Source of the DNA: Exiguobacterium sp. J17977
Lineage (GTDB): Bacteria > Bacillota > Bacilli > Exiguobacteriales > Exiguobacteriaceae
DNA: 64,000 bases
Reading direction: 5' to 3'
Assembly: GCF_018616375.1 (NCBI RefSeq)
Contig: NZ_JAEQBB010000001.1
Location: 62,001 to 126,000, forward strand
Position 1 is the first letter of the stretch. Every line of letters starts with the position of its first letter. Under the pieces are notes generated by a model that saw only the letters and a program-made list of their open reading frames with translations, searched no databases and was not told the origin of the DNA. Below, piece after piece: positions 5,104-13,590 of this stretch. The position numbers and the translations under genes are program-made.

Positions 5104-6357
5104 ATGGTAAACACGACGAAGTTGAAAGTACAGGATGCGGAATTGTTTGAAGCGATGCAACACGAGCTCGGTCGCCAACGCGAGAACATCGAACTCATTG
5201 CCTCGGAGAATTTTGTCTCAGAAGCAGTGATGGAAGCGCAAGGTGGCGTGCTAACGAACAAGTACGCGGAAGGTTATCCAGGCCGTCGCTACTACGGTGG
5301 TTGTGAGTTCGTCGACGTGGCAGAGAACTTGGCCCGCGACCGCGCCAAGGAGCTGTTCGGTGCAGAACACGCCAACGTCCAGCCGCATTCGGGTGCGCAG
5401 GCGAACATGGCCGTTTACTTCACCGTCCTTGAAGCAGGGGACACGGTGCTCGGCATGAACTTGTCGCACGGTGGCCATTTGACGCACGGAAGTCCGGTCA
5501 ACTTCTCAGGCGTTCAGTACAATTTCGTCGAATACGGTGTGGACAAAGAGACAGAACACATCGATTATGACGTCGTCGCAGCCCTCGCGAAAGAACATAA
5601 ACCAAAACTCATCGTCGCTGGTGCCTCGGCGTACCCGCGGACAATCGACTTCGCCAAATTCCGTGAAATCGCAGATAGCGTCGGTGCCTACCTCATGGTC
5701 GACATGGCCCACATCGCCGGTCTCGTCGCGGCCGGTCTTCATCCGAACCCGGTCGAGCACGCGCATTTCGTGACGACGACGACGCACAAGACGCTTCGCG
5801 GACCGCGCGGCGGCATGATTCTCTGTAAAGAAGAGTTCGCCAAGGCGATCGACAAGTCGATTTTCCCAGGCATTCAAGGCGGTCCGCTCATGCATGTCAT
5901 CGCGGCGAAGGCCGTGGCGTTCGGAGAAGCGCTCCAACCTGAGTTCAAAGAGTATCAGGCACAAGTCATCAAGAACGCGCAAGTGCTCGCACAAGGTCTT
6001 GAAGAGGAAGGGCTCCGCATCGTATCGGGCGGTACGGATAACCACCTTCTCCTCGTCGATCTCCGCGGCATCGACATCACCGGGAAAGCGGCCGAGCATG
6101 CGCTCGACGCAGCCGGCATCACGGTCAACAAGAACACGATTCCGTTCGATCCGGCATCACCGTTCGTCACGAGCGGGATTCGACTCGGGACGGCCGCGAT
6201 GACGACACGCGGATTGAAAGAAGACGATATGCGTGAAGTCGCTCGCTTGATCGGACGCGTCTTGACGAACCATGAAGATGAAGCAGTGCTGGCGGAAGCG
6301 CACGAAGCAGTTCGCGCGTTGACGTCGAAGTTCTCGCTCTATCCTGAACGAGGCTGA
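5104..6357 (+). CDS. glyA: Serine hydroxymethyltransferase
   Basis: PLP enzyme that converts serine and tetrahydrofolate to glycine and methylene-tetrahydrofolate. The N-terminal [13 protein letters not shown], the glycine-rich [13 protein letters not shown] and the PLP-lysine segment [15 protein letters not shown] are all present; length 417 aa is standard. AGAGGGGGT precedes ATG 5104. In B. subtilis glyA also follows ywlG and precedes upp; here an extra membrane-protein gene follows directly and upp lies about 8 kb away. Confidence 0.98.
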
Positions 6358-6360
6358 CGA

Positions 6361-7287
6361 ATGGACGTACGGACACTCGCAGAACGGGAACTTGCGGAAC
6401 TGCCGCTCATCGATATGACAGAATGGCTCGTCCGAAAAGGCGAGCACGACCCGACGTTTCGCCTCGTCGCGAACGAGTTCGGGGTCGTGACGACGCTGCT
6501 CGACCACGGGTATTATATCGAGGCAAGTGAACGGATTGTACCGCTTCTCGGAATGAAAGTGCCGGCGGCGTTTCATCGGCTCGGGCTTGCGCTCGAAGTG
6601 AAGGCGAACGGAAAGAAGGCGGCCCAGCGCCGCTTTCGTTCGTTCTCGCCGGCCGTCACCGGTCATGCGGACTTGTCGGCTTGGCGCAACGCCTTTAAAT
6701 GGAACAAATCTTGGCTCGGTCTGCCGCTCGTCGTCGGCCTCGGTCTGGTCGCCCTCTTCCTTTGGCCGGATGCGGAGCCGCCTGCCGTGACGCCGACCGC
6801 ATCCAACGAACGAGTCGAAACGGTGACGGAGGATGAGGCACTCGCGAAACGGTTAGAAGAGCTCGAACAAGAAGTCGCTCGACTCGAGGAGGCGAACGAG
6901 GCGCTCCAAACCGAGGACGAGACGACCGAAGCCCCTGAGGCGCCGGCCGTCATCCCACTCGGTGAAGTCGAGACGCTCGTCTCGGACAAGCGTTATGAGG
7001 AAGCCGACGCGCTCCTCGTCGGCAAGGCGAAAGCCGGCCAAGAACAGGCCGTCGGCTTTTATCGGTTGCTCGTCGACAACAAGCTCGGCGAAGCGAAGAT
7101 TGCCGATTATGCCGCCTATGTCGACACGTATCCAGAGTCGGGATATAAGGCGGACGTCTTATGGATGAAAGGCATCGCCGAGAAGAAGGCCGGGGACGAC
7201 ACGTACCGGACGACGCTCGCCGAAGTCGCCGCCATGGACGGGACATACTGGGCCCCGATTGCCAAATCGGTGCTCGAGGAAGACTGA
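6361..7287 (+). CDS. Unknown membrane protein with central coiled coil
   Basis: Not recognised. 308 aa with a soluble N-terminal domain of about 110 residues, one membrane span at about 118-138 (LGLPLVVGLGLVALFLW), then an acidic predicted coiled coil at about 150-185 (LAKRLEELEQEVARLEEANE) and a C-terminal segment of about 100 residues with helical, TPR-like spacing (EEADALLVGKAKAGQEQA, YAAYVDTYPESGYKADVLWMKG). The N-terminus (LAELPLIDMTEWLVRKG) faintly recalls the HARE-HTH segment of RNA polymerase delta; this is only a visual impression. It starts three bases after glyA and ends in a terminator, so it is co-transcribed with glyA. Confidence 0.75.
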   Translation: MDVRTLAERELAELPLIDMTEWLVRKGEHDPTFRLVANEFGVVTTLLDHGYYIEASERIVPLLGMKVPAAFHRLGLALEVKANGKKAAQRRFRSFSPAVTGHADLSAWRNAFKWNKSWLGLPLVVGLGLVALFLWPDAEPPAVTPTASNERVETVTEDEALAKRLEELEQEVARLEEANEALQTEDETTEAPEAPAVIPLGEVETLVSDKRYEEADALLVGKAKAGQEQAVGFYRLLVDNKLGEAKIADYAAYVDTYPESGYKADVLWMKGIAEKKAGDDTYRTTLAEVAAMDGTYWAPIAKSVLEED

Positions 7288-7313
7288 GGTCGCAGCCGTG
7301 CTGTGACCTTTTT
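7287..7313 (+). terminator. Terminator of the glyA operon
   Basis: AGGTCGCAG / CTGTGACCT nine-pair stem with one G-T, followed by five T. Its T-run touches the direct repeats of the next promoter. Confidence 0.85.
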
Positions 7314-7367
7314 CTCATCAAATTCTAATCAATTTCACCGCTCTTTCTCAGCTCGCTCCCGTACAGT
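7312..7367 (+). promoter_or_regulatory. Putative response-regulator site and promoter
   Basis: TTCTCATCA at 7312 and TTCTAATCA at 7323 form direct repeats 11 bp apart, with a weaker third TTCA at 7334; a -10-like TACAGT lies at 7362-7367, and no good -35 is present. The arrangement recurs at 9670-9724 with the same distances. OmpR-family regulators typically bind 11-bp repeats just upstream of the -10. Confidence 0.55.
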
Positions 7368-7395
7368 AAAGAAAAAGGATAAGGGAGAGGGACAT

Positions 7396-7665
7396 ATGCG
7401 CTCAACTAGCAGAGGAAAGATTGGAAGATTGATTCGAGGGGCGATGGTCGGTGCGCTCGCATTGACATTGATGTTGGCTGGGGTCGCCGGATTCTTATTA
7501 TTTACCTTGACGGGTAACGCGTGGCTCGACCAACTCGCCCAAATCGGGACTGATATGGCGTTTCGCGTAGAGGGATTTGAGTCGACGTTCGACCAAATCG
7601 GCGACTCGTTCGAATTGCGCGTCGAACAAGCGATTCCTGAAGCGGTTCGTCCGTTTTTTGACTGA
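7396..7665 (+). CDS. Small membrane protein of unknown function
   Basis: 89 aa: a basic N-terminus (MRSTSRGKIGRLIRG), one hydrophobic span at about 15-38 and a short extracytoplasmic tail of about 50 residues with the acidic stretch RVEGFESTFDQIGDSFELRVEQ. ATG 7396 is preceded by GGGAGAGGG; the frame runs back to 7303 but would pass through the promoter. It lies between putative regulator repeats and a terminator, just upstream of the two-component genes, so it is probably a separately controlled target or accessory of that system. Family not recognised. Confidence 0.7.
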   Translation: MRSTSRGKIGRLIRGAMVGALALTLMLAGVAGFLLFTLTGNAWLDQLAQIGTDMAFRVEGFESTFDQIGDSFELRVEQAIPEAVRPFFD

Positions 7666-7691
7666 GGAATCCGGGAACACTTAGAATGATG

Positions 7692-7719
7692 CGTCGGGCA
7701 GACTGCTCGGCGTTTTTTT
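7692..7719 (+). terminator. Terminator before the response regulator gene
   Basis: Nine-pair stem CGTCGGGCA / TGCTCGGCG (two G-T pairs), loop GAC, then seven T. Read-through would feed the downstream regulator and kinase genes. Confidence 0.8.
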
Positions 7720-7736
7720 GAGAAAGGATGAATGCC

Positions 7737-8414
7737 ATGCCTACGATTCTCGTCGTCGAAGACGATGCTAAAATTGCCAGACTGCTCGAACTGGAACTCA
7801 TGCATGCCGGCTATGAAGTCGAGGTCGCCCATGACGGGCGAGCCGGGCTCGACCGGGCGCTCGCCGGTGGGATTGACCTGATGTTGCTTGACGTCATGCT
7901 GCCGCAGATGAGCGGACTTGAAGTCGTGCGCCGCGTCAAAGAAGAGCAGCCGTTACTTCCGGTATTGATGGTGACGGCACGCGGGGACCGCTACGATAAA
8001 GTGAGCGGTCTCGACCTCGGGGCCGACGATTACATCACGAAACCGTTCGAGATGGAAGAGTTACTCGCGCGGATCCGGGCGTTCTTACGGATGCGGCAAC
8101 ACGTCCAAGTCGATACGAGTGAACGGGTTCTTACTTATGAAGGGTTGACTGTCGACGTCAATCGCCACGAAGTGATGTGTGAGGGGCAAAAAGTCGACTT
8201 GACCCGACGTGAGTTCGATTTGCTCGTCTATTTGCTCGAACATCCGGAGCGCGTACTCACGCGCGATCAACTCGTCGAGCACGTCTGGGGCTTTGACTAT
8301 TACGGGGACACGAACGTCGTCGATGTGTACGTCCGCTATGTCCGCAAGAAACTCGGAGGCTCTTGGATTCAGACGGTCCGAGGCGTCGGCTATATGTTGA
8401 AGCGTGGTGAGTAA
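7737..8414 (+). CDS. OmpR/PhoB-family response regulator
   Basis: 225 aa DNA-binding regulator. Receiver domain at about 1-118 with acidic pair ED at 8-9, phospho-acceptor D52 (LMLLDVMLP) and the conserved K in YITKPF; winged-helix output domain at about 130-225 with EFDLLVYLLEHP and RYVRKKLG. ATG 7737 is chosen over ATG 7728 because AGAAAGG lies directly against 7728 but is properly spaced from 7737. The kinase gene begins at the 3' end. Probable targets are the two neighbouring genes with matching 11-bp repeats. Confidence 0.93.
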   Translation: MPTILVVEDDAKIARLLELELMHAGYEVEVAHDGRAGLDRALAGGIDLMLLDVMLPQMSGLEVVRRVKEEQPLLPVLMVTARGDRYDKVSGLDLGADDYITKPFEMEELLARIRAFLRMRQHVQVDTSERVLTYEGLTVDVNRHEVMCEGQKVDLTRREFDLLVYLLEHPERVLTRDQLVEHVWGFDYYGDTNVVDVYVRYVRKKLGGSWIQTVRGVGYMLKRGE

Positions 8415-8415
8415 G

Positions 8416-9654
8416 ATGAAGCTACGGACGAAAATCGCCTTGGCGATGGCGGGATTCATGTTGTTCCTGCTGATCACCTCGTTCGGTGTCGCCTGGCTCG
8501 TCTCGCGCCAACAGATCGTCGACGCTCGTTATGACGTCTTGCGCCAGGCGCTCAGCTTGCTCGAGGAAGACGAGCGGAACCAACAAGCCGTCTTGTCGTT
8601 GCACGAGGACAGTGTCGTGCTCGAACGGCAGGCGAACGGCGATTGGGGCATCATCGGTGGACAGGCCGATGGCGCTCTTCGATTCCCGGTCAATTTCGGG
8701 GAACCGGCGCTCGTCGATGACTGGTTCGTCATCGCGACGTCGAATGGGCTTGGTTACGCCTTTCAAGACGCGGCCGTGAGTGAAACGCTGCGGACGCTGG
8801 CGACGATTTTCCTTGTCATCTTCCTGATTGCCGTGGCGGTGACGTTCCTCGGCAGTCTATGGATCGTACGCCAAGGGCTCGACCCGTTACGCCGTCTCGA
8901 ATCGACGATGGAACGAATCACCGAGTCAGGTACGCTTGAGACAATCGATGTCGGCAAGGACAAAGATGAGGTATCGACGCTCGCGACGGGCTTTAACCAA
9001 ATGATTGCGCGAGTCGAAGGGTCGATGGAGCAACAACGACGTTTCGTCGCCGATGTTTCACATGAACTGAAGACACCGCTCACCGTCATCGAAGGGTACG
9101 CCAAACTGCTTCGGCGCTGGGGTCAGAGCGACCCGGCCGTCCGCGACGAGGCGATTGACCATATCTTGACCGAGTCGCGGCAAATGCGTGAGGACTTGAT
9201 TGAACCGATGCTCGAGCTGAGCCGTTTCTCCTCGCTCGAAGACGTGGAGACCGAAGCGATTACCTTGACCGAGCTGGCCGAGCAGTTGACCGAGCGATTC
9301 GAGCGATCGCACGGTATCCACGTACCGATCGAGGCAATGGGGGAGTGGCACGGGCATCGCGATTCGTTGCAACGGCTCGTCGTCATTTTCATTGACAACA
9401 GTTTGAAATATGCGACCGACACGCGTGTCACGATGACGCCCGACCGCATCGAAGTACGGGACCATGGGACGACGCTCAGTGAGGAAGACCGGGCGCGACT
9501 GTTCGACCGCTTCTATCGACTCGATGAGGCGCGAGACCGGAGCGGCAGCGGACTTGGCCTCGCCATCGCCAAGGAAGTGGCGGATTTGAACGGATGGAAG
9601 GTCGGCAGTTATGCGAACGCGCCGGACGGCAGTGTCTTTTACGTCACAAAATGA
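8416..9654 (+). CDS. HAMP-domain sensor histidine kinase
   Basis: 412 aa partner of the preceding regulator. Spans at about 9-31 and 128-150 enclose an extracytoplasmic sensor of about 95 residues; a HAMP domain follows (RQGLDPLRRLESTMERI), then the phospho-acceptor helix VADVSHELKTPLTVIEGY and an ATP-binding domain with IDNSLKYA, DHGTTLS and GSGLGLAIAK. The N box and G2 are intact; the G1 box reads DHGTT rather than DxGxG, slightly degenerate. ATG 8416 follows GGTGAG; GTG 8407 is possible. It resembles the ArlS/CssS type of Gram-positive kinase in layout, but the specific system cannot be named. Confidence 0.9.
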   Translation: MKLRTKIALAMAGFMLFLLITSFGVAWLVSRQQIVDARYDVLRQALSLLEEDERNQQAVLSLHEDSVVLERQANGDWGIIGGQADGALRFPVNFGEPALVDDWFVIATSNGLGYAFQDAAVSETLRTLATIFLVIFLIAVAVTFLGSLWIVRQGLDPLRRLESTMERITESGTLETIDVGKDKDEVSTLATGFNQMIARVEGSMEQQRRFVADVSHELKTPLTVIEGYAKLLRRWGQSDPAVRDEAIDHILTESRQMREDLIEPMLELSRFSSLEDVETEAITLTELAEQLTERFERSHGIHVPIEAMGEWHGHRDSLQRLVVIFIDNSLKYATDTRVTMTPDRIEVRDHGTTLSEEDRARLFDRFYRLDEARDRSGSGLGLAIAKEVADLNGWKVGSYANAPDGSVFYVTK

Positions 9655-9669
9655 CAAATCTTTCGCAGA

Positions 9670-9724
9670 TTCTCATCATTTTCTAATGGAATCCTCGTGG
9701 TGCTCTAAGGTCACCGTTCTATGA
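9670..9724 (+). promoter_or_regulatory. Putative response-regulator site and promoter
   Basis: TTCTCATCA at 9670 and TTCTAATGG at 9681, 11 bp apart, with TCCT at 9692 and -10-like TATGAT at 9719-9724. Sequence and spacing match 7312-7367 (first repeat to -10 is 49 bp here and 50 bp there). Confidence 0.6.
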
Positions 9725-9770
9725 TGAAGATGTAGAACAAGTTCACCACATGAAACGAGGAGGAGACATC

Positions 9771-10495: not shown

Positions 10496-10521
10496 AAAAT
10501 GCCACGCGAGTGGCATTTTTT
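10496..10521 (+). terminator. Terminator of acidic repeat protein gene
   Basis: AAAATGCCAC / GTGGCATTTT perfect stem, loop GCGA, followed by T. Confidence 0.9.
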
Positions 10522-10623: not shown

Positions 10624-11853
10624 ATGAGAAGAGTCATCGGACTGATGAGTCTAGCTATGATGGTAGTCAGTGGCTGCGGGACGAGTGAAATCAATGCGCT
10701 CAATTTACGACCACTGTCGACGTATGCGATTCAACAAGACCGAGACGTTCCGTTGACGTCTGCGTTAAAGACGCGATTGTTGGCTTACTGTGAGCAACAA
10801 CCGACAGACGTGTTGCCGACACGTCGGGCCGAACTGGCGGCCATCACATTCCGTCATCCTTTCTATGATGAGTTAGGCAGCAAGACCGTCAAATATTGGC
10901 GGAGCGGGGATGACCGTTACATCTCTTGCTTGAACAGCAACGAACAAAATGAGCGTGTCTTCCGGACGGATGCACTCGAGGCGTTCGAGTCCTCGGCCAC
11001 GTCTGCGCCGAGGGAAGTCGATGTCGGGAACACGCTATCGTTCGTTCCTGAACCGGACGTCGCGACCGTGGCACGCGCCTTCGCGGTCAATGAGACGCAT
11101 GAGACGATTATTCCCGGTTCGGTCTTCCGGTATCACACGCCGGACCGTGGTGCGCTTCATGTCAACTATCTCGTCTATCAAGACGGTACTGAGGCGGGAC
11201 AATTGATTGAGCCGGGGCTGTTCGTCTTCGAGAGCGGCAAGAATGAAGGCGTGGCGTTCTTGACCCAATTGGCCGATCAACGGATCACGCTCCAGATGGG
11301 CACAAAACAGGCGTGGGACCGCACTGTATTACCTGCGTCGCTCGCGGGCGAGTACGTGCAAATCGACTCGAAAGAAGCGATTTTCAATTTAGACGCCGAA
11401 GGACAGCGTCTGTTGAAGCGAATCGTGCTCGCTGATAAACCGATTGAAGACGTCACGGAGAAAGACTCTGCCGTCTTATCAAGTCGGTATGGTACCGTGA
11501 TCGAGGTATGGGGCACCGTTCAACGACCAGGTGCCGGTGAATTGACGATCACATCGGAGCAAAAAGAGGTGATGCGGTTGGCAACGTATGAGACGGAAAC
11601 GAAGACGGCTCATCTCGGTGGCCCGAACACACGCGAGCTGTTCGAACTATTGTCCCGTGTGAAGACGACGAGCGCTGCACCGACAGGCGAACGACGCGGG
11701 ACGCTCGCGTTGTATGAACAGTTGACCGAGCAACGGTTCGACGTTTGGATTGAGGAAGGGAAAGAGTCCCTTCAATTGATGGACGTCGAGACGAAGCGGG
11801 TCTATTTGATTGATCAACTGGAATTTGAAGAATTGCTCGACACTTACATATAG
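10624..11853 (+). CDS. Unknown lipoprotein
   Basis: 409 aa. Signal peptide with lipobox VVSGC (MRRVIGLMSLAMMVVSGCGTS), so cleaved at Cys18 and lipid-anchored outside the membrane. The mature part has no motif I recognise; it is mixed alpha/beta and contains a single free cysteine pair region (LLAYCEQQ, ISCLNSN). ATG 10624 is preceded by AAAGGAGGGGGC; the open frame reaches back to 10555 but lacks a start that good. It is a single gene between two terminators. Confidence 0.7.
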   Translation: MRRVIGLMSLAMMVVSGCGTSEINALNLRPLSTYAIQQDRDVPLTSALKTRLLAYCEQQPTDVLPTRRAELAAITFRHPFYDELGSKTVKYWRSGDDRYISCLNSNEQNERVFRTDALEAFESSATSAPREVDVGNTLSFVPEPDVATVARAFAVNETHETIIPGSVFRYHTPDRGALHVNYLVYQDGTEAGQLIEPGLFVFESGKNEGVAFLTQLADQRITLQMGTKQAWDRTVLPASLAGEYVQIDSKEAIFNLDAEGQRLLKRIVLADKPIEDVTEKDSAVLSSRYGTVIEVWGTVQRPGAGELTITSEQKEVMRLATYETETKTAHLGGPNTRELFELLSRVKTTSAAPTGERRGTLALYEQLTEQRFDVWIEEGKESLQLMDVETKRVYLIDQLEFEELLDTYI

Positions 11854-12129: not shown

Positions 12130-13590
12130 GTGAAATTGAAAAAGTTAATTATGTCTCTAACGGTAGTGTTGTTGATTGTTAGTCTGAACATGTCTAAAAC
12201 GGGGGCACAAACCATGAACCCACTCGACGGTGTGAAGAACTATCAAGTGTATTATGGCCATCCAACGGCAGCGATTTTGAAAGATATGCAAAACTATGAC
12301 CTCGTCATCATCGAGCCGCTCCATTACACGAAATCGCAAGTGGAGCAAATCAAAGCACGCGGGACAAAAGTACTCGGATATATTAGCGTCATGGAAGTTG
12401 CGACATGGAACACGGGTCTCATGTCAAAACTTCAGTCAGGTGACTTCTTTACGCGTAACGGACAACGTGTCCATTACTCGGAATGGGATTCGTACTTGAC
12501 GAACATCGCCTCACCGCACTTCCAAGGATTGCTCCTCACGGAAATCCAGAACCAAGTCATCGCCAAAGGCATCGATGGCGTGTTCATGGATACGGTCGGT
12601 GATATCGATAACGAACATTTGAACAACCCGACCGTGCTCAAGCAGCAACGGGACGGACTCGTCAACTTCTTGAAACAAGCACGGGCGCGCTATGGCGATA
12701 TCGCCATGGTTCAAAACTGGGGCTTCGACACATTGGAAACGTCAACGGCACCTTACGTCGATGGCATCATGTGGGAGAGCTTCAACGCCGACACGATCAA
12801 GAGTGACGCTTGGTCACAAAACATGATTAAGAAATTACAAGCGGTCGACGCGAAGCATTCGGTCAAGACGCTTACGATTTCGACACGTCTTAGCGCGGAT
12901 AGCCATAAACTGGCCAAAGATTCTGGATTCATCCACTTCCACGAAGCGGATGCTTACGTGAACTGGAATGCGGGTCTCGTGACGCGCACCAAGGACACGG
13001 CGCCGACAACGGCACCGGCCGCAGTAGCACCGGCGACGAAACCAGCTACGACGACAACGACAAAGCCAGCTACGACAACAACGAAGCCAGCTACAACGAC
13101 AACGACGAAGCCAGCTACAACGACAACAACAAAGCCAGCTGCGACGACAACAACGAAGCCGGCTACAACGACAACGACGAAGCCAGCTGAAACGACAACA
13201 ACAAAGCCGGCTACAACGACAACGACGAAGCCAGCTACAACGACAACAACAAAGCCAGCTGAAACGACAACAACGAAGCCGGCTACAACGACAACGACGA
13301 AGCCAGCTGAAACGACAACAACAAAGCCTGTCGCAAAGCCAGTCTCAGCACCGAAAGCGGATGCCTCGACGGACAAACCGACCGAGTCGAAACAAAAAGC
13401 AAAAGCGGACTGGAAGCAAGAGAAGAAAGACAAAAAAGAGAAGAAGAAGGCGAAGAAGCATGCCAAAAAACATGCTAAAAAGCATGCCGCCAAGCACAGC
13501 TCGTCTAACGACCATCACGCCGCCAAAGGAAACATGTGCGGAAAAGTGAAACACAAGACGGCCGGTTTCCTAAACTTCTTCAAATTCTAA
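12130..13590 (+). CDS. Secreted GH114-like (endo-alpha-1,4-polygalactosaminidase type) protein with TTTTKPA repeats
   Basis: 486 aa. Signal peptide at about 1-27 (ending KTGAQ). A TIM-barrel domain at about 28-290 shows the family features YYGHPTAAILKDMQNYDLVIIEP, VLGYISVMEV, acidic GVFMDTVGDID and GIMWESFN, as in GH114 and related predicted galactosaminidases. A linker of twelve Thr-Lys-Pro-Ala units follows (about 307-401), then a strongly cationic Lys/His tail (KKEKKKAKKHAKKHAKKHAAKH) and a short end with one Cys. GTG 12130 is set by AGGAGAGG. The linker and tail suggest the enzyme is held in the wall by charge; substrate is unproven. Confidence 0.8.
   Translation: MKLKKLIMSLTVVLLIVSLNMSKTGAQTMNPLDGVKNYQVYYGHPTAAILKDMQNYDLVIIEPLHYTKSQVEQIKARGTKVLGYISVMEVATWNTGLMSKLQSGDFFTRNGQRVHYSEWDSYLTNIASPHFQGLLLTEIQNQVIAKGIDGVFMDTVGDIDNEHLNNPTVLKQQRDGLVNFLKQARARYGDIAMVQNWGFDTLETSTAPYVDGIMWESFNADTIKSDAWSQNMIKKLQAVDAKHSVKTLTISTRLSADSHKLAKDSGFIHFHEADAYVNWNAGLVTRTKDTAPTTAPAAVAPATKPATTTTTKPATTTTKPATTTTTKPATTTTTKPAATTTTKPATTTTTKPAETTTTKPATTTTTKPATTTTTKPAETTTTKPATTTTTKPAETTTTKPVAKPVSAPKADASTDKPTESKQKAKADWKQEKKDKKEKKKAKKHAKKHAKKHAAKHSSSNDHHAAKGNMCGKVKHKTAGFLNFFKF
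13048..13332 (+). repeat. Coding minisatellite, twelve Thr-Lys-Pro-Ala units
   Basis: Eleven 24-base units and one 21-base unit encoding (T/A/E)TTTTKPA, with synonymous ACG/ACA and CCA/CCG changes and alternating T, A or E at the first position. Expected to vary in copy number in frame. Confidence 0.95.

Follow-up and report, generated by a model that had tools for sequence, protein, structure and literature searches.

A 64,000-nt stretch of the genome of Exiguobacterium sp. J17977 (contig NZ_JAEQBB010000001.1, positions 62,001 to 126,000; referred to here as the window) encodes a two-component system, composed of a response regulator (RR) and a sensor histidine kinase (HK), that is flanked by genes for a small membrane protein and for an acidic membrane-anchored protein. 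Each of these two genes is preceded by a copy of the same putative operator-promoter (sites A and B). The gene order is glyA, a gene of 308 amino acids (aa), hairpin, site A, small gene, hairpin, RR, HK, site B, acidic gene and hairpin (Table 1). These genes probably form an autoregulated system of the OmpR/PhoB family, predicted to activate the membrane-anchored acidic proteins by means of a PhoB-like operator. The anatomy of the operator, its fixed spacing, its conservation, the joint absence of genes and sites, a gene fusion and the linkage to two-component genes can all be read from the DNA; phosphorylation, binding and the direction of regulation are what we infer.

A first-pass annotation of the window had reported matching direct repeats at 7312 and 9670. 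Both 18-mers (TTCTCAT-N4-TTCTAAT) are exact at these positions and are the sole matches in the window at up to three mismatches. From base composition, the exact pair is expected 0.0003 times per window and 0.013 times per genome, and in the 2.94-Mb genome carrying the window the pattern TTCTMAT-N4-TTCTMAT has exact matches at sites A and B only. Two single-mismatch matches elsewhere in this genome (L003 and L004) lie inside genes and were rejected as sites. At two mismatches 68 matches were found, versus 49 for the reversed control; as loose matches are this frequent, the evidence for the sites comes from their conservation. The -10-like hexamer, previously placed 49-50 bp from the first repeat, starts exactly 50 bp from it in both sites, and the reported lack of a usable -35 also stands: at spacers of 15-19, hexamers match TTGACA in at most 2/6 positions. 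The OmpR-class repeat geometry proposed in that annotation was borne out, but the operator is larger than it had described, with four half-site positions in 11-bp steps (0, 11, 22 and 33) instead of two, the third being degenerate. The in-phase heptamer at +33 matches at 6/7 (site A) and 5/7 (site B), and that at +22 is weak (4/7 and 5/7, respectively); offsets +20 and +27 of site A also score 4, so +22 does not stand out in that site. Such 11-bp direct repeats in tandem, with conserved heptamers and a fixed phase to a -10 without a -35, are features of a PhoB-like class II operator-promoter. A scan of the window with a later sequence model (R2, see below) returned sites A and B as the only matches at E ≤ 10, both sites belonging to the training set of that model.

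The earlier reading had been made to depend on the repeats being kept in relatives, and they are, with fixed spacing before both orthologues. The exact pair pattern occurs in 17/19 Exiguobacterium genomes (reversed control, 0/19). Kinase and acidic protein were identified in 18/19 of these genomes and the small protein in 17/19; site A is present at 17/18 loci, the exception being that of G003, the sole locus without the small gene, and site B at 18/18, its first repeat reading CACTCAT in G006. The alignment of genus sites (34 sites) does not include site B of G006, which was missed by the pattern and found by other scans. TANNNT occurs at +50 in 34/34 aligned sites, with varying middle letters (TACAGT, TATGAT, TATCAT, TATAGT, TATAAT, TAAAGT and TACGAT). 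In G003 (locus L114) the small gene is absent and the acidic protein is cut to one repeat domain (158 aa), while G013 has neither protein, no site and, in a profile search at E ≤ 1e-40, no kinase orthologue. Exact occurrences of TTCTAATGTGATTCTCAT in G002, G010 and G016 were considered as a third regulon member; these lie over the first codons of an opposite-strand gene and were taken as coding coincidences. In G014 (L124), an insertion of ~1.4 kb with an opposite-strand TnpB-like frame (recognised by eye) splits the regulator and kinase genes.

A 61-bp sequence model trained on the genus sites only (R1) was run on 38 genomes of the order, so that the sites of the sister genus fall outside the training set. 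Every match at E ≤ 5.9e-5 corresponds to this locus or to a relic in G024, and the next best match has an E value of 0.018. Seventeen Exiguobacterium genomes have two such matches each; G003 has a single one, as do 17 genomes of the sister genus. In the genome carrying the window, only sites A and B score at E ≤ 0.5 under R1. Given this conservation, a chance origin of the repeats is untenable.

In the second genus of the family, relatives of the acidic protein were identified by profile in 16/19 genomes: they are single proteins of 285-301 aa, in which a membrane segment resembling that of the small protein is followed by three acidic domains. The fused gene is located upstream of the regulator and kinase genes (identified by short sequence motifs, and for the kinase of G023 also by profile), and its promoter possesses all four half-sites and TATTCT at +50 in 16/16 genomes. 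Comparison of the small protein with the N-terminus of the fusion gave an hhalign probability of 90% and a score of 36.9, against at most 16.5 for 100 column shuffles (made separately inside the membrane half and the remainder), 12.0 for the reversed control and 10.1 for the N-terminus of the acidic protein versus the fusion. By this comparison, the small and acidic proteins flanking the two-component system evidently correspond to two parts of one sister-genus protein, and the fusion suggests that the two most likely act together. A class-wide search with the fusion profile gave one marginal match outside the family (G081, E 8.6e-6; 1/360 genomes), which was set aside.

Of the 17 sister-genus R1 sites, 16 precede the fused gene. 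The remaining one is the relic of G024 (L215), where operator and -10 are intact at the usual flank but the genes for kinase and fusion protein have been lost; the next reading frame of any size starts ~210 bp past the relic promoter. No kinase orthologue came up at E ≤ 1e-40 in profile searches of G024, G026 and G034, the last two of which also have no R1 site. In G035 (L180), promoter and fused gene are separated by the insertion of a TnpB-like gene (by eye, IS200/IS605 type).

The element extends to other families of Bacilli. R1 was run on 200 genomes of the class (class-wide scans used the stricter filters of the search tool), giving matches in 32 genomes outside the family, and the best site in each of these was fetched (32 sites). 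For 31/32 of these, an RR 43-57% identical to that of the window, together with an HK, is located within 3.6 kb; for the 32nd (G168) the RR is 7.2 kb away. TANNNT is found at +50 in 31/32 sites. Thirteen matches, nine of them from one genus, stopped short of the -10 in the model, and 12/13 still have TANNNT at +50, its count at every other offset from 44 to 69 being 0 or 1. Mean heptamer matches over the 32 sites are 6.9, 6.7, 4.3 and 5.5 of 7 at offsets 0, 11, 22 and 33, and among other offsets only +5, within repeat 1, exceeds 4 (4.4). Among the candidates scored (92 in some large genomes), 35 RRs at E ≤ 1e-60 were found in the 32 genomes, so a random 10-kb stretch would be expected to hold one in well under 1% of cases. 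The RR beside the site is the top-scoring one in 19/25 genomes with a match (20 if G168 at 7.2 kb is counted), the top-scoring RR lying elsewhere in five. The downstream protein was taken as the longest open reading frame starting 50-250 nt past the site, or else up to 420 nt, and may in some cases not be the true first gene; Pfam PepSY was identified in 23/31 of those scanned in this set, the others including NlpC/P60 and peroxiredoxin proteins (two each).

A second model (R2) was built from 48 sites, with G127 left out of the alignment as its -10 is absent. At E ≤ 0.001 it matched 147/398 genomes, or 112/360 counting those outside the family. From among the R2 matches listed, a second set of 60 sites was drawn, in 57 genomes outside the R2 training set: TANNNT is at +50 in 59/60, an RR of at least 190 bits lies within 5 kb of 49/60 (partial RRs, of 144 and 173 bits, lie at a further two), and PepSY was found in 43/51 scanned downstream proteins (no downstream protein was chosen for 9/60 sites, and for 1/32 in the R1 set). 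Across families, the bases that hardly change are those of the first two heptamers, of parts of the +33 heptamer and of the -10, and those between vary. Among the 92 out-of-family sites, a -35 match of at least 4/6 was seen in one site at spacer 16, in three sites at spacer 17 and in one at spacer 18. Searches of the open-access literature turned up, among the papers listed, no account of this element or of an operator linking PepSY genes to two-component systems.

The two-gene module is real and conserved, and belongs to a wider pattern of two-component system, operator and PepSY gene. Its earlier description as 'self-contained' fits the genome carrying the window, where only the two sites score, but does not carry over to other Bacilli, in which the element mostly stands before PepSY genes and some sites lie away from any such kinase. 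In genus g23, sites at PepSY genes (L342, L343, L347, L373 and L374) have no homologous regulator within 5 kb, and in three of these genomes another site is divergent to the regulator gene; the regulon of this genus is, by its sites, larger than the locus. At L260, L281, L366 and L370 the site is located at the end of the kinase gene, and a peroxiredoxin (AhpC/TSA) gene follows 280-390 bp further on.

The RR is of the OmpR/PhoB family, with Pfam domains Response_reg (1.3e-29) and Trans_reg_C (3.7e-29). In the HK, a membrane sensor region is followed, in the order of a sensor kinase, by HAMP (3e-10), HisKA (2.9e-16) and HATPase_c (5.5e-15). A low-confidence model (mean pLDDT 63.7) shows two long helices at the HK N-terminus around a sensor region of ~70-90 aa; the structure matches listed for it were kinase-core structures and WalK/BceS-type entries. 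In a list of 60 solved-structure matches, ArlR had the highest score per residue with the receiver domain of the RR (140.8 bits over 118 residues), and the full-length RR scored best against RegX3 among the matches listed. The ArlR recognition helix TNVVDVYIRYLRNKL is nearly identical to TNVVDVYVRYVRKKL, and a recognition-helix pattern is common to ArlR and the RRs beside the sites (77 reading frames, picked by a pattern that itself fixes some letters of the helix).

The small protein (89 aa) possesses one transmembrane segment, recognised by eye, and a tail of ~50 aa ending in IPEAVRPFFD; no Pfam or NCBIfam match was found. The acidic protein consists of an N-terminal transmembrane segment (by eye), a low-complexity linker, two predicted five-stranded barrel repeats (~81-205) and an Asp-rich tail. 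In its structure model the strands of the two barrels span 81-205 in blocks of pLDDT 76-92 and the first third is unstructured and of low confidence, the whole model having a pLDDT of 65 and a pTM of 0.41. The nearest solved folds by VIA-align were OB-like barrels including CusF and SilB, a weak match (Z ≤ 7.0) within the common range of the tool, with tied scores for many unrelated OB proteins. Foldseek returned barrels of the cold-shock, Mpa and S1-like types (query TM ≤ 0.23), dismissed as reflecting a common barrel and not function. The acidic protein had no Pfam match and a profile search of solved structures gave none at E ≤ 10; it is not a PepSY protein, with no match to PF03413 at E ≤ 0.1 and an hhalign probability of 0.4%. 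Its layout is nevertheless like that of the PepSY targets: an N-terminal membrane or signal segment, tandem small domains, an Asp-rich end and negative charge. Net charge per 100 residues is -18.9 for the acidic protein and has a median of -8.4 (range -21.1 to +1.7) in PepSY-like proteins (57 picked by motif out of 82). On the best reading of these data, acidic OB-like proteins occupy in Exiguobacterium the usual place of PepSY.

Several known systems invite comparison. At PhoB class II promoters, the -10 lies about 10 bp downstream of the box and sigma is contacted. The present sites are like such promoters in their 11-nt repeat units, a -10 ~10 bp downstream and no -35; the pho box is described as direct repeat units of 11 nt, with seven conserved and four less conserved bases, bound head to tail (PMC4415409). 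They are unlike the pho box in the heptamer (TTCTCAT/TTCTAAT), in having two tandem boxes at every aligned site and in that no phosphate genes were seen. For ArlR, Crosby et al. 2020 reportedly gave the consensus TTTTCTCAT-N4-TTTTAATAA. The likeness to the Staphylococcus aureus ArlRS system lies in the receiver and recognition helix of the RR (by pairwise scores), and the differences in the best full-length match, to RegX3, and in the autoregulation predicted here. ArlR drives mgrA and spx (PMC8774646), and rArlR gave no shift of its own promoter fragment (PMC6455253). At ica, the ArlR site is placed 11 bp upstream of the -10, though it is described as an inverted repeat (PMC11645427).

The layout also resembles that of the PepSY loci linked to two-component systems in Bacilli, where an RR-HK pair stands beside a secreted, mostly acidic protein of tandem small domains under the same operator; the Exiguobacterium acidic domain differs in not being PepSY. 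B. subtilis ykoGH with ykoI/ykoJ is presumably an example of such loci. VisP, an OB-fold protein, offers a further parallel. The sensor kinase VC1639 of Vibrio cholerae controls VisP (YgiW), a conserved periplasmic protein (PMC5636140). The likeness is one of layout (sensor kinase and periplasmic protein), and that system differs in being Gram-negative and responding to polymyxin B.

In the mechanism proposed, the phosphorylated regulator would bind the four-half-site operator (0, 11, 22 and 33) head to tail as two adjacent dimers, at a near-consensus upstream pair and a weaker downstream pair ending 10 bp before the -10. As in promoters activated by PhoB, the downstream pair would make up for the lack of a -35 contact. 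Transcription from promoter A would cover the small gene and, where it passes the hairpin, probably also RR and HK, giving positive feedback, and promoter B would drive the acidic protein. The two proteins most likely work jointly on the external side of the membrane, where they could offer an acidic surface to cations or cationic peptides or else serve as a partner to the kinase. As to function, we tentatively favour a role of the acidic proteins in capturing cations or cationic peptides at the membrane face or in influencing the kinase; confidence in this functional assignment is somewhat short of even. The 'envelope response' named in the first-pass annotation would follow from the membrane segments and acidic extracytoplasmic domains. 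Its regulatory reading is supported as far as sequence can show.

Several observations weigh against this scheme or limit it. The window by itself is weak evidence, as two or more matches at three mismatches also occur in 8/100 window shuffles, and the third half-site is poorly conserved. The supply of RR and HK from promoter A may be interrupted by the hairpin at 7691-7713, which could stop read-through (fold z -3.1); a promoter-like TTGACT-N18-TAGAAT is present at 7658-7687, and G003 retains RR and HK without site A. The segment 7655-7713 is strongly conserved (a TCGGGAA block, then the hairpin), the stem being kept, by eye, in 18/18 aligned genomes; in G003 it is kept with changed bases on both sides and without the T-run, though the small gene is absent. 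With the hairpin and the promoter-like match, RR and HK may not depend on promoter A; given the conserved stem, the hairpin or a separate promoter may determine how much of them is made. Outside the family, 10/60 second-set sites have no RR of at least 170 bits within 5 kb; one of them, in G384, has a 144-bit fragment and a kinase. Five of the 60, from one genus, precede confirmed PepSY genes with no homologous RR within 5 kb, although for three of these five the genome holds another, RR-adjacent site, and four further sites have no RR above 140 bits nearby. The site sets are partly redundant (77 distinct 56-mers among 92 sites); grouped by variable bases, the 92 sites form 47 groups, 45 with TANNNT at +50 and 41 with an RR near at least one member. 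The homology of small protein and fusion covers 50 aligned columns from few diverse sequences, and the OB-like fold match is weak at Z ≤ 7.0. Activation, as opposed to repression, is predicted from geometry.

It is unlikely that the repeats are bound by another, paralogous or global, OmpR-family regulator and that the adjoining system is linked by position only. Such regulators are numerous and recognise similar direct repeats, and the 10/60 sites without a nearby RR would fit this; yet 80/92 out-of-family sites are close to one RR type, itself numbering only 35 in 32 genomes among the candidates scored, the top-scoring RR stands beside the site in 19/25 genomes and, the four family genomes lacking the kinase either have no site (three) or retain a relic (one). 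Repression by the bound regulator is similarly improbable. The operator covers the would-be -35 region, from which OmpR-family proteins can repress, but a good -35 is missing (at most 2/6 in the window, few among the 92 out-of-family sites) and the distance to the -10 is held strictly constant, a constraint that a repressor would not need. That the repeats arose by chance, or as a side effect of the T-run in the upstream terminator and of common descent at a single locus, is hardly credible: loose matches are common (68 against 49) and repeat 1 of site A adjoins a T-run, but no such terminator was found ahead of site B, and across families the first two heptamers, parts of the one at +33 and the -10 hardly change amid variable bases.

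A stronger contender, which has a real though minority chance of being correct, is that the small protein and the acidic protein feed back on the kinase as modulators and are not envelope effectors. MgrB, reportedly a feedback modulator of PhoQ, would be the model. Same-operon or adjacent position, membrane anchoring, predicted autoregulation, the sister-genus fusion and PepSY genes beside kinases elsewhere all favour such a role, whereas the Asp-rich tail and tandem barrels resemble a binding surface and G003 manages with a single acidic repeat and no small protein. Tentatively, and with rather less than even confidence, the autoregulated system proposed here can be extended to a class-wide unit of Bacilli, in which one operator design would hard-wire an ArlR-like two-component system to membrane-facing, mostly acidic tandem-domain proteins, usually PepSY; in Exiguobacterium, the place of PepSY would have been taken by an acidic, OB-like repeat protein of unrelated origin, which was later separated from, or joined to, its membrane anchor.

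A kinase search returned 12 named loci, nine of them from Exiguobacterium at 73-98% identity and the remaining three (an actinobacterium, Pyrinomonadaceae and a cyanobacterium) at only 24-29%. Downstream of the module, a lipoprotein-like gene of 409 aa (10624-11853) has no Pfam match; its relatives (42-89% identity, some partial) are found downstream in the 17 other loci. At 12130-13590 the window encodes a GH114-like glycoside hydrolase that has a long tail of TTTTKPA-type repeats and an end rich in Lys and His.

Table 1. Features of the two-component locus and its surroundings (window coordinates)
Feature	Position	Strand	Remarks
glyA	5104-6357		recognised by eye
308-aa gene			between glyA and the terminator-like hairpin at 7286-7310
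Terminator-like hairpin 3' of 308-aa gene	7286-7310	+	T-run adjoins repeat 1 of operator A
Operator A heptamers	7312-7351	+	7312 TTCTCAT, 7323 TTCTAAT, 7334 TTCACCG (degenerate), 7345 TTCTCAG
Promoter A -10-like hexamer TACAGT	7362-7367	+	+50 from repeat 1; without -35
Small membrane protein gene, 89 aa	7396-7665	+	one transmembrane segment, by eye
Hairpin and T-run between small gene and regulator gene	7691-7713	+	terminator-like; possible partial terminator
OmpR/PhoB-family response regulator (RR), 225 aa	7737-8414	+	Pfam Response_reg, Trans_reg_C
Sensor histidine kinase (HK), 412 aa	8416-9654	+	HAMP, HisKA, HATPase_c
Operator B heptamers	9670-9709	+	9670 TTCTCAT, 9681 TTCTAAT, 9692 TCCTCGT (degenerate), 9703 CTCTAAG
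Promoter B -10-like hexamer TATGAT	9720-9725	+	+50 from repeat 1
Acidic membrane-anchored protein gene, 238 aa	9771-10487	+	N-terminal transmembrane segment by eye, linker, two barrels, Asp-rich tail
Terminator-like hairpin 3' of acidic gene	10496-10519	+	

The role of PepSY proteins, which occur widely, is largely open. Many of them are tied to one type of kinase and regulator, across a sizeable part of the class (a site at E ≤ 0.001 in 112/360 sampled genomes outside the family), by a DNA element that was recognised from sequence alone, and the common promoter offers a direct handle, as one reporter could be used for what the kinase senses. The Exiguobacterium version places an unrelated protein in the PepSY slot, and its split or fused pair predicts which two proteins interact. 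If the class-wide unit is true, the occurrence of unrelated folds in one slot would mean that charge and placement are the conserved function, acting on the kinase or on extracellular cations or peptides.

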